Part shown: piece by piece, positions 1-3,707 of the stretch
Position numbering within the stretch: the first letter of the stretch is position 1
How the letters are laid out: each line of letters starts with the position of its first letter
Source: Candidatus Taylorbacteria bacterium RIFCSPLOWO2_12_FULL_43_20
GTDB lineage: Bacteria > Patescibacteriota > Minisyncoccia > Phycocordibacterales > HO2-43-120
DNA length: 45,160 nucleotides
Direction: 5' to 3'
Assembly: GCA_001821295.1 (NCBI GenBank)
Contig: MHSK01000032.1
Coordinates: 1-45,160, forward strand
Position numbers and translations under genes: made by a program
Notes under the pieces: model-generated
What the model saw: the letters and a program-made list of their open reading frames with translations, nothing else
The model's database searches: none
What the model was told of the DNA's origin: nothing

Positions 1-222
1 TGAAATTGTAGATTTTTGTACTCCGGCAGTTGATGGATCATGATCATTCTCGGAGCTTACGCTTATCCATCCAACATTATCTGACCACATAAAGCCAGTA
101 AGAGGTGTCCCCGTGCAGGATGATTGCCCCTCTACGCTTTTATTGTTGGTCACTGAGTAGGTACCAACCAGTATCAATGCTGCCGTTACTAATAAAAAAG
201 GGATTTTTTTGATTTTTTTCAT
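1..222 (-). CDS. Exported hypothetical protein, 3' end cut by window edge
   Basis: An open frame runs from ATG at 222 off the left edge: 74 codons with no stop. The N-terminus has a lysine-rich start and a hydrophobic stretch (about residues 7-23), so a signal peptide or membrane anchor is likely. Around residues 43-56 it reads GFMWSDNVGWISVS, a short Trp/Gly motif that I associate from memory with repeat-bearing surface proteins of Patescibacteria ('W S x N V/I G W I S'). Only the N-terminus is present, so length and function cannot be judged. A promoter-like pair lies just upstream (see 231-259), with its -10 only 8 bases from the ATG and no Shine-Dalgarno. Frame and start are fairly sure; function is unknown. 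Confidence 0.6.
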   Translation of the reverse strand, partial: MKKIKKIPFLLVTAALILVGTYSVTNNKSVEGQSSCTGTPLTGFMWSDNVGWISVSSENDHDPSTAGVQKSTIS

Positions 223-310: not shown

Positions 311-316
311 TTGTTC

Positions 317-619
317 ATGAAATGGAAATCATGGCCATATTGGCTTAGAGGCGGGGTGATTATGGGAGTTTTAACCTTAATCTATATTGTAATAATTTAT
401 GCCTGTGGCTGGATTATAAACAATTTTCTATGTTTAGCTCCACTAATGTTTGGACCAGTATATCCTGTAATTATAATGGATTCTAACTTAGAATTTATAC
501 TTAATAGAAAAATTTCCTTCGAATTTCTACTTATCCTAAGTGTCATATTCTGGCTTATTGTTGGCTCCCTCATAGGTGCCTTAGTTGGTCATATAAAATC
601 TCGAAAAACTCAATCATAA
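317..619 (+). CDS. Small integral membrane protein
   Basis: A 100-residue protein beginning MKWKSWPYWLRGG. The frame could extend to TTG at 311, but ATG 317 fits the extended -10 just upstream. Three hydrophobic stretches are visible: about residues 13-35, a weaker one around 38-53, and 69-91. The C-terminus is short and basic (HIKSRKTQS), so it is probably cytoplasmic. I recognise this only as a type of small hypothetical membrane protein common in Patescibacteria. No catalytic motif is visible. It is divergent from the gene at 1-222, with 94 bases between the starts, and convergent with the gene at 711-3200. Confidence 0.6.
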   Translation: MKWKSWPYWLRGGVIMGVLTLIYIVIIYACGWIINNFLCLAPLMFGPVYPVIIMDSNLEFILNRKISFEFLLILSVIFWLIVGSLIGALVGHIKSRKTQS

Positions 620-642
620 AAAGAGCCCACAATGTGAGCTCT
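618..642 (-). terminator. Intrinsic terminator of the 711-3200 gene
   Basis: Read on the minus strand, AGAGCTCACA pairs with the complementary arm of 622-642 (one G.U pair), and the stem is followed by five T (complement of 618-622). It lies about 70 bases downstream of the minus-strand stop at 711. The + strand direction has no T-run. Confidence 0.7.
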
Positions 643-710
643 GAAGCGCCACTGGTTTAAATACCAGAGCATTGTAGTCGTAAAAAGAACTAATTCGCCC
701 GAGAGCGACG

Positions 711-3200
711 TTACTGACCCATTGCACGGTAGAACATGTAACCATTGGTGTTGCGATCCATGTATCGCATGATACCGTTGGTGTTTACGAAGATTGCCTG
801 GAGTTCCCAATCTATGAGATTCGAGGAGTTCTCAAGAACGTAGTTACCCTCAGGTCCTGTGAGCGTAATTACGACCGTACTTACGTCCTCTTCCTCAATA
901 CTCAGTATGTATGGCTCCCTTGTGCCTGCAAACCCAAGAGAAAGGTTGGTGATAGTTACGCTGGAGCTCGTGTTTGTGTATGTGTCCAGACGGAATCCTA
1001 AAACACCATTCTTCCCTTCAGGAATCTCCAGCGTATGCGCCGTCATCTCCGGCAAAGCGAATCTTTCGTCTATTGAGGCGATTTCATTCGTGCCCCAGTA
1101 AACCGTGAGAAGCCCTTCGGCTCCGCCTTCGCTCGTGAACGCTGACTCAAACGAGATGAAGTTCGCAGTGTTGGTCAATATGACTTCTACAGCGAACCAT
1201 GCTGGTTCAGGTTGTGGTAAAGCGAATTGACGTAGCTGCTGTTCGGGTGAACCAGCTGTACTCAGTGTTACCCAGTTGTCTCCGATGAGCTTAGACCCTT
1301 TGGGACTTTCGATTTTCATCAACGACCTAATGTTTAAGGGGTAGTCAACGATATTACCCTCTTCATACGGAACACACAGTTCCTCTTGTTCGCTGCCCAG
1401 AACTTTCTCACGTCCTGGTGGGTACTGACTTTTCAGCCAATCGATGTTGTCTACATTGTCCATGACAAGGGAAAAACCGAATTCATCGGCTCCCTCCACT
1501 GAGTTGGGTGGTATGGTACTGTAGAAGAACTCATGTGGCCAGCCGTGTGAAGACACATGCTGAAAACATTTTTCCAGACTGAGTCCGCTACTGGTTGAAT
1601 GCAGTACAGGTACCTCCTCCGTAGACGAGTCTAGTCTTGTTACGTCGACGTTGTAGGCATTTTCCAATCTACCTACAGTTCTACCAAATAAATGATCATA
1701 CGTAACAGGATCGCGTGCGAAGAAGTTTATTGCCCAATCGGCATCTTGTCCATATTTTTTTCGGCCTCCATAATGTGAGCCAATGAATGGATCAAGAAAG
1801 ATGCAAAACAGTGTAACTTTTGAATTCAGTGATTTGATCTTTTTGGTCATCGCTTGAATTAATGCCGCCCCAGCACTATGGGCTACCAGAATGATATTTT
1901 TTCTATCTTGTTGAGCAACACAACTACCAAGAAACAACCCATCCTTTTCCGCGTTATCAAGAACATCATCTTTAACTACAGCAGAAAAAGTTGGCAGCCA
2001 CGCTTCCTCTTTCCACCTGTAGGCTTCAACTTGCCAATTACTGAGACCCCTTTCCGAAAGGTTATTTCGCATGGCTTCCGCCATCTCATCTATCCATTTT
2101 GGATCAGGTGGTTCTGTCTGGCCGTCTTCCTTTTTTATAAGCCCGTGCGTGATCACGATTAGTGAATCCGCTCCGTCCTTTTTCTGGAAGGGGCAATCAT
2201 AGCTTTCACGCACCGGCAAAAGCAGGCTGTTAAACCATCCTGAAAGTGATGATGGTAGAACCGTGCGAAAGCCGGCAGTTGTTCCTACATAGTCCGGTCG
2301 TTCGGCCAATAATGATCTTACTGATGTCCTGCACCAGCGAGCACGGTAACGCCAGCCACCTCCACGTAGGACTCTGTCAGTTCCGACATTCGGGCCATTA
2401 GGATTGGAATACGAAGACCAATGATAATACGACGGATCATACCAATCCCAGCACCATTCTCTCACGTTGCCAGCCATGTTAAACAAACCGTAACCATTGG
2501 CATTGAAGTAATCAACGGGACTGGTCCATGAGACCTTACCCCATTCTGAAATATCTTTCATAAAGTCTGGATGATATCCGGACGTGGGCGATATGTCATA
2601 ATCGTAACTCTGCGGATCGGCTCCATAGTTTGCATTCTCATGGCTTATGGTTTGTCCCCACGGAAACCGTTGGTCGATCAAGCCGCCTCTTGCCGCCTTT
2701 TCCCATTCCGCCTCTGTGGGCAGACGATATCCGGAATTCCAATCTACCCAGGATGACTCAATATCAGATTGCCCTCTGCGGTAAACTATAGTTTTTAAGT
2801 CATCTAGATAATATGCTGGTAATTTGCCCTCCTTTTCGGATCGCGCGTTGCACCATTTAACAACGTCATACCAAGTTACGCCATAAACCGGGTGGTCATC
2901 TGCACGGCCGGAGCCAGTATGGTCAAAATTGTAACCATGGAGCAAACCCCACTGATAGACATCGTCCCAAAAGGCCTTGGGTGTTTCTGTCTTGTCCATA
3001 TAGAAGCCGTCAATGTGCACACGATGCACCGGCTGTTCATCATCAAAGCTTTCATTTGCCGCAAGCGGCGCTCCCATAAGGAATTCCCCTGCGGTAATAA
3101 GAACTATATCGGGCGCAGGTGTCGCAGCGTAAGTCAGAGCGGTTTCAGAGCAGAATGCCAAAAAGGCAAACACCAGCAATGAATTCAGTGTTTTCTTCAT
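711..3200 (-). CDS. Secreted FGE/SUMF1-like domain fused to alpha/beta hydrolase
   Basis: 829 residues. Residues 1-26 form a signal peptide. About 30-315 is a formylglycine-generating-enzyme/SUMF1-like domain with the family landmarks: an early GEFLMG, HPVYGVTWYDVVKWCNA, YRLPTEAEWEKAARGG, NMAGNVREWCWDWY, RVLRGGGWRYRARWC and a closing GFR. The cysteine pair of true FGEs is not clearly aligned, so formylglycine formation is unlikely; a binding or other FGE-like role fits better. About 340-600 is an alpha/beta hydrolase: VITHG near its start, nucleophile motif AHSAG (GxSxG variant), a following LDP, and a late SSHGWPHEFF that may give the catalytic His. About 640-760 is beta-rich. The last 60 residues (YVLENSSNLIDWEL...YMFYRAMGQ) resemble a C-terminal module that I associate with exported Verrucomicrobiota proteins. 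Probably acquired horizontally. Substrate unknown. Confidence 0.75.
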   Translation of the reverse strand: MKKTLNSLLVFAFLAFCSETALTYAATPAPDIVLITAGEFLMGAPLAANESFDDEQPVHRVHIDGFYMDKTETPKAFWDDVYQWGLLHGYNFDHTGSGRADDHPVYGVTWYDVVKWCNARSEKEGKLPAYYLDDLKTIVYRRGQSDIESSWVDWNSGYRLPTEAEWEKAARGGLIDQRFPWGQTISHENANYGADPQSYDYDISPTSGYHPDFMKDISEWGKVSWTSPVDYFNANGYGLFNMAGNVREWCWDWYDPSYYHWSSYSNPNGPNVGTDRVLRGGGWRYRARWCRTSVRSLLAERPDYVGTTAGFRTVLPSSLSGWFNSLLLPVRESYDCPFQKKDGADSLIVITHGLIKKEDGQTEPPDPKWIDEMAEAMRNNLSERGLSNWQVEAYRWKEEAWLPTFSAVVKDDVLDNAEKDGLFLGSCVAQQDRKNIILVAHSAGAALIQAMTKKIKSLNSKVTLFCIFLDPFIGSHYGGRKKYGQDADWAINFFARDPVTYDHLFGRTVGRLENAYNVDVTRLDSSTEEVPVLHSTSSGLSLEKCFQHVSSHGWPHEFFYSTIPPNSVEGADEFGFSLVMDNVDNIDWLKSQYPPGREKVLGSEQEELCVPYEEGNIVDYPLNIRSLMKIESPKGSKLIGDNWVTLSTAGSPEQQLRQFALPQPEPAWFAVEVILTNTANFISFESAFTSEGGAEGLLTVYWGTNEIASIDERFALPEMTAHTLEIPEGKNGVLGFRLDTYTNTSSSVTITNLSLGFAGTREPYILSIEEEDVSTVVITLTGPEGNYVLENSSNLIDWELQAIFVNTNGIMRYMDRNTNGYMFYRAMGQ

Positions 3201-3707
3201 AAATTAACAGGGTATGTAGTTTTCAAATTCCGATTACATCACCAGCTCACACGAGCGGATCAGTGTCTAGCTCTACAGTACAACACTTCATATTCGTTTT
3301 CAACCTAATGCGAATATACAACTCCGACGCTTCAGTCGGGGATGGATACGAATAAGGGGGAGGGGGAAGGGACACCCCATCATTAGATAAACACGAAGTA
3401 CGAAATCCGAATTCTAAAGCTTCATTAGCTTCAATAGCTTCATAAGCTTCACTAGCTTGTCAGACACCCCATCGCCTCGCCGCGAGGCTCTTCCCCTCTA
3501 AAGAGGGGAAGAGGAAGAGCGGGATGAAGAAATTTCCAATTACTAATTTCTAATATCTAATGAGAAGAAGAATGGAAAAATCCTCCGGCCAAAGGCCACC
3601 TCCTTTAATAAAGGAGGAGAAAGAGCTGGTTGTGTATTAAACGGCGAACACCCGAACGGCAAACGCCGTTCGGGTGTTGGGTTTCAAAGTGGTCAACATG
3701 TCTAACA
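3201..3707. repeat. Gene-free mosaic repeat spacer
   Basis: 507 bases without a credible gene. 3313-3355 holds a degraded copy of the GACGCTTCGGTCGG palindromic module (intact copies near 31.2, 32.1, 36.1 and 42.3 kb). 3418-3458 is a tandem array of a 9-base unit (AGCTTCATT and variants, 4.6 copies). 3465-3515 carries the module CCCCATCGCCTCG...CCCCTCTAAAGAGGGG, shared with 15.6, 24.6 and 42.2 kb. About 3528-3560 has the reiterated AATTTCCAATTACTAATTTC motif. The dnaJ 3' hairpin follows at 3647-3678. Confidence 0.7.
3647..3678 (-). terminator. Strong hairpin downstream of dnaJ
   Basis: A perfect 14-bp stem (3647-3660 with 3665-3678) with a 4-base loop, built around CACCCGAACGGC. It starts 30 bases past the dnaJ stop. 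The following minus-strand sequence (TTCGCCGTTTAA) has only a poor T-run, so it may act as a terminator, as 3'-end protection, or be another palindromic repeat. Confidence 0.5.

Follow-up and report, generated by a model that had tools for sequence, protein, structure and literature searches.

TslA is a type VII-secreted phospholipase toxin of staphylococci that is accompanied by an immunity lipoprotein, TilA (PMC10730906). In function, it is the system that the locus described here appears to resemble most closely: in both, a lipase-type enzyme is exported and has next to it a membrane-associated partner that varies and is sometimes present in several copies. However, TslA leaves the cell through the T7SS, carries an LXG-like domain and is accompanied by two small helical proteins for its secretion, whereas the protein studied here has a signal peptide and no LXG domain. 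Likewise, TilA is a lipoprotein, whereas the partner reported here is a multi-segment membrane protein encoded in convergent orientation. Two broader families are represented within the enzyme itself. Its N-terminal domain has the fold and family of the PF03781 FGE-sulfatase/SUMF1-EgtB-PvdO proteins, such as Streptomyces coelicolor FGE (2q17), the Treponema denticola variable protein (2y3c), and PorK/GldK, but differs from catalytic FGE in lacking the Cys pair and in serving as a module within a larger protein that is exported. Its hydrolase domain resembles the pancreatic-lipase-type and other alpha/beta hydrolases (PF00151, PF12697) in the nucleophile elbow, the LDP Asp and the His that follows in order, but falls below every curated cut-off.

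Much is still to be learned about the ways in which Patescibacteria, tiny and dependent on hosts, attack other cells, live off them or compete with them. Here we analyze a 45,160-nt stretch of DNA (the window) from Candidatus Taylorbacteria bacterium RIFCSPLOWO2_12_FULL_43_20, which is very small and probably host-dependent. An earlier note, made from the sequence alone, had drawn attention to a secreted fusion protein at positions 711-3200. The new element is a two-gene cassette that extends outside those coordinates: the exported lipase-like enzyme is strictly paired with a small membrane protein, making a concrete and testable gene pair of which the papers listed in our literature searches gave no description. 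We also document an exchange of protein modules with Verrucomicrobiota across phyla, followed by their domestication inside one order.

Results

Domain organization of the exported protein

The protein and its parts have the following coordinates in the window.

711..3200, minus strand: exported multidomain protein of 829 aa with FGE-like, alpha/beta-hydrolase, beta-sandwich and tail parts (ORF and domain searches)
3126..3200, minus strand: signal peptide, residues 1-25, MKKTLNSLLVFAFLAFCSETALTYA (called by eye)
2253..3116, minus strand: FGE/SUMF1-fold domain, residues 29-316; catalytic Cys pair absent (Pfam, PDB alignment, model)
1341..2198, minus strand: serine alpha/beta-hydrolase, about residues 335-620 (conserved triad in alignments; weak Lipase/Abhydrolase matches)
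1875-1877, minus strand: nucleophile S442 in AHSAG (alignments)
1791-1793, minus strand: triad D470 in FLDP (alignments)
1545-1547, minus strand: triad H552 in SSH (alignments)
921..1253, minus strand: beta-sandwich, jelly-roll-like, about residues 650-760 (alignment, structure model)
714..911, minus strand: Verrucomicrobiota-type C-terminal tail module, residues 764-829 (alignment, profile)

The 829-residue secreted fusion of the earlier note is borne out by an intact ORF on the minus strand, with 829 codons, an ATG start and zero internal stops, and by a signal peptide recognized by eye; the latter has no lipobox, F preceding C17 (also by eye). Assignment of the N-terminal part to the FGE/SUMF1 family, as the note had suggested, is confirmed by PF03781 over residues 29-314 (E 7.7e-49, 167 bits against a curated cut-off of 23.3), and the domain model matches the structures of FGE (2q17) and the Treponema variable protein (2y3c) with Z of 28-31, and FGE structures in general with Z of 27-31. 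The two copper-binding active-site cysteines of catalytic FGE were not found as a pair in the alignment to S. coelicolor FGE, in agreement with the note: Tyr285 occupies the first catalytic position, and C290 may match the second. With this pair missing, formylglycine production would not be expected.

The alpha/beta hydrolase that the note had recognized by its AHSAG motif is likewise real. Ser442, Asp470 and His552 (S126, D154 and H236 of A4) and a THG motif are kept among the homologues in 3-way and 15-way alignments, although Pfam evidence is weak. Abhydrolase_6 matched the window domain with E 0.0024 (19.0 bits against a cut-off of 26.3), a Lipase match in one homologue scored 16.6 bits against 27, and the domain, being too divergent, reached none of the curated Pfam lipase cut-offs. 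In the structure model, strands and helices alternate at residues 346-470, the remainder being of low confidence, and the tail region was modelled poorly; both had too few usable sequences.

The beta-sandwich had been overlooked in the earlier note. Its fold matches are middling (MAM/CBM-like, Z of about 10) and are not counted as evidence of function. The same sandwich (E 1e-23) occurs in a protein of 472 aa, predicted to have a membrane segment at its N-terminus and encoded by the divergent neighbour (L151 8951-10369, minus strand) of a related gene in genome G008, so the module is also carried by other envelope proteins. At its extreme C-terminus, the window protein bears the motif YxLE.S.NL.DW...NTNG...D......FYRA, and the tail seen in the note as LENSSNLIDWE...FYRA proved to be a recurrent module of Verrucomicrobiota type.

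The convergent gene and the surroundings of the locus

Three further features delimit the cassette.

311..619, plus strand: MP-A, convergent small membrane protein gene, 102 aa, about three hydrophobic segments (neighbourhood/profile analysis)
622..642, minus strand: intrinsic-terminator-like hairpin with a T run, 3' of the 711-3200 gene, also kept in the duplicate on contig C2
3647..3678, no strand: perfect inverted repeat with 14-bp arms, upstream of the 711-3200 gene (genome search)

The MP-A gene, also overlooked in the earlier note, is conserved as a partner; its true start is likely ATG 317. The inverted repeat has two copies genome-wide, each beside a copy of the cassette, and no such repeat common to the other loci was found, so it is not a general feature.

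Genes for dnaJ, dnaK, grpE and ribosomal proteins are contig neighbours of the 711-3200 gene. Since they lie on the same contig and the partner family is native to the order, assembly contamination is unlikely. A phage or plasmid origin was rejected, with zero full-length matches in phage and plasmid collections and zero relatives in viral contigs, as was an anti-phage defence role, with zero PADLOC matches. At the contig edge, a protein that looks exported and contains a GWIS motif begins within positions 1-222 (minus strand) and runs off the contig.

Distribution of the hydrolase-sandwich-tail core

The last three parts of the window protein, hydrolase, sandwich and tail (HST), were used as a search profile. 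Among 397 genomes of the window's order, 10 had matches, corresponding to 7 of the 179 sampled genera, with strong full matches in G000, G008, G082, G091, G129, G241 and G288. In 380 genomes drawn across the phylum the only full match was the window's own, and 387 Verrucomicrobiota genomes also yielded one. Full-length HST proteins, reached via their FGE domains, were found in the Verrucomicrobiota-type genomes G402 (three copies), G400 and G415. Full-length homologues of the window protein in Patescibacteria include those of L009 (Ca. Nomurabacteria, 46% identity) and G008 (36%), and a window-like architecture is present in L009, G008, G082 and probably G091. The recurrence of the same architecture in Patescibacteria, which the note had named as an argument for an old native gene, is thus seen in part: it is patchy, in 7 of 179 genera of the order; the same-genus relative G001 lacks the gene.

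The part in front of the core varies. It is an FGE domain in the window, L009, G008 and G082, and partly in G091 and G434, and consists of HAF/DUF3466-like repeats in G129, G091 and G288. The Verrucomicrobiota proteins (three from G402, one each from G400 and G415:C30) have the same hydrolase, sandwich and tail with 32-37% identity to the window protein, but differ in having Ig-like, LamG or CBM96 domains in front, in their higher GC and in lacking a convergent small membrane gene. The G415:C30 protein carries FGE as well, together with LamG and Ig. The window FGE domain alone had its best matches in Verrucomicrobiota, at 50-57% identity. Another genome of the order has three consecutive FGE-domain ORFs (L004, L006, L007) on a 7.3-kb contig, G021:C42.

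Tail matches occurred in half of 38 searched genomes, with up to 28 copies per Verrucomicrobiota genome, where the motif ends mutually unrelated exported proteins. Unrelated exported proteins with the Verrucomicrobiota-type tail were also seen in a few Patescibacteria, G265, G082 and G183 (L152 6210-7202, L153 5480-6430, L140 15813-16904, L213, L214), where their genes lack a membrane partner.

Strict linkage of Patescibacteria HST genes to a small membrane protein

Partners were defined as convergent ORFs of 75-200 aa with at least two hydrophobic segments, located within about 100 bp. Such an ORF accompanies 11/11 Patescibacteria HST genes (8 genomes, with three genes from G091), compared with 2 of 288 other genes on sampled contigs (Fisher p 2e-18), one of these two being an MP-B-like gene that adjoins an HST locus. 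A partner is also retained at all three HST remnants (contig C2 of the window genome, G129 and G091), while none of the five Verrucomicrobiota HST genes has a convergent small membrane gene. The partners are about 92-121 aa long with 2-3 hydrophobic segments, except for one of 186 aa beside the C2 remnant.

The profiles were made from the HST-adjacent genes themselves, yet every partner was recovered in leave-one-out searches (E 2e-34 to 2e-13). The partners belong to either of two families, A and B, between which no similarity could be detected. The four family B partners correspond exactly to one clade of the HST tree. The linkage spans at least six genera with an exact end-to-end position, even across the change of partner family. 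Membrane protein genes stand in tandem in G008 and G288, and the loci of G129 and G091 are arranged as [MP, tail remnant][MP, full gene].

Family A is present in 20/387 sampled genomes of the order, namely in 5/7 HST-bearing genomes versus 15 of about 380 others (Fisher p 4e-6, assuming that both order samples coincide). In six of the family A genomes, the strongest family A matches lie beside HST genes; G129 and G091 have a few weaker ones also away from them. Weaker relatives in genomes without an HST gene, several beside recA, indicate that family A belongs, as one branch, to a larger native group of small Patescibacteria membrane proteins. The HST and membrane protein distances correlate weakly (Mantel r 0.28, p 0.033 for 11 pairs; r 0.15, p 0.26 for family A alone).

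Origin and history of the cassette

In the HST tree, one branch with support of 100/100 splits the 11 Patescibacteria rows from the 5 Verrucomicrobiota rows; the branch of the window protein is long. The FGE tree places the four closest Patescibacteria domains within an otherwise Verrucomicrobiota clade, and their single origin is not rejected (p-AU 0.097). Given this nesting and the abundance of the tail in Verrucomicrobiota, that phylum is the probable source of the FGE and tail modules; the HST core, which occurs there too, though rarely, may have moved in either direction.

A decayed second cassette is located on contig C2, where about 42 tail codons, the terminator and the membrane gene are left. 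Its tail is approximately 70% identical to that of the window protein (30/42), versus 27% for the membrane proteins. Since both copies have the inverted repeat on their upstream side, positions from about 311 to 3678 probably made up the unit that was copied.

The earlier note's reading of the tail as pointing to transfer holds for module exchange with Verrucomicrobiota; that the event was recent or confined to this genome is not supported. One recent transfer out of Verrucomicrobiota, straight into the window genome, as the note implied, would agree with the FGE matches of up to 57% and with the absence of the gene from G001, but we consider it very improbable. The comparison with the rest of the genome that the note had proposed gave no sign of it, composition being ordinary (GC z 0.8, codon use z -1.1); homologues exist across several Patescibacteria families; the Patescibacteria HST proteins form one clade, which contradicts such a transfer for the hydrolase part; and the genome contains a decayed duplicate. 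The transfer is not recent, and the ordinary composition together with the decayed C2 copy makes it old. In L009 the gene is GC-richer than its surroundings (0.46 vs 0.35).

Discussion

We interpret the locus as encoding an intact exported modular lipase/esterase-like enzyme and its dedicated membrane partner, the latter most likely immunity-like and otherwise serving as a tether or in product handling, and we put the probability of this reading at about 0.5. The gene context suggests that the small membrane gene is the dedicated partner of the enzyme; against this, Verrucomicrobiota have the same enzyme without it, and convergent orientation is unusual for immunity genes. The data show the anatomy, the conserved triad, the phylogeny, the strict linkage, and the duplication and decay of the cassette, from which we infer substrate, toxicity and the role of the membrane protein. 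The FGE and tail modules, at least, were probably acquired anciently from Verrucomicrobiota-like donors, and in Patescibacteria the enzyme gene has become half of a two-gene cassette. The FGE-fold domain, its active site lost, probably binds a surface together with the beta-sandwich and the tail, and the Ser-Asp-His hydrolase may cleave an ester outside the cell, most likely a lipid or other envelope or polymer ester. The small membrane protein would act in the producer's own membrane as the dedicated partner, most likely shielding the producer from the enzyme, or else tethering the enzyme or handling its products.

The pair could be a polymorphic-toxin-like system as in TslA/TilA, with a lipase as the antibacterial toxin and the membrane proteins as its cognate immunity factors. 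The exported enzyme would attack competitor or host membranes, and at the producer membrane it would be blocked by the small membrane protein. We regard this as possible rather than probable. It would account for the dedicated neighbour at 11/11 genes and 3/3 remnants, the occupation of one slot by two unrelated families, the tandem copies, the orphan partners that adjoin gene remnants, and the faster divergence of the partners than of the flanking DNA. What makes the cassette resemble toxin/immunity loci is that partners occur in tandem and as orphans, that an unrelated family can take the same slot, and that the [MP, tail remnant][MP, full gene] layout exists. TslA is polymorphic, and the TilA genes beside it are non-identical and vary in number (PMC10730906). 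On the other hand, the hydrolase is not hypervariable but fairly conserved, no LXG, PAAR, RHS or similar delivery domain was found with Pfam and NCBIfam, the Pfam hits being confined to FGE and weak hydrolase matches, and the Verrucomicrobiota HST genes lack a partner.

The absence of a toxin hallmark would fit a scavenging or surface enzyme with a helper, where the hydrolase releases lipids or decorations from debris or from cells nearby, while the membrane protein tethers it or imports the products, which is another possible though not a probable explanation. Patescibacteria generally make few of their own lipids, and the signal peptide, the binding-type domains and the frequent occurrence of these domain types in large exported Verrucomicrobiota proteins agree with such a role; yet it leaves unexplained the tandem partners, the swap to an unrelated family and the partners kept beside gene remnants. 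Finally, the membrane gene may be a passenger, in a cassette copied and moved as a unit within the order, with no functional tie to the enzyme. The MP-A relatives in HST-free genomes (15 of about 380), the weak Mantel correlation and the cassette duplication in the window genome are in line with this, but it seems unlikely to us, given that the membrane gene is kept at 11/11 genes, in exact end-to-end position and across at least six genera, even when the family changes.

The most far-reaching reading would be an as yet undescribed system of some Patescibacteria, a signal-peptide-exported lipase toxin with immunity, built with Verrucomicrobiota modules, in which two unrelated membrane immunity families stand end-to-end with the toxin gene and displaced toxin remnants keep their immunity gene. 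We regard this reading as doubtful.

The tail was considered as the element recognized by the membrane protein and is not favoured, since the genes of tail-only proteins (L152, L153 and L140 15813-16904) do not adjoin a gene of this kind. In several genomes of the order, recA is flanked, sometimes on both sides, by small membrane proteins akin to the partner family (L224, L227, L228, L209).
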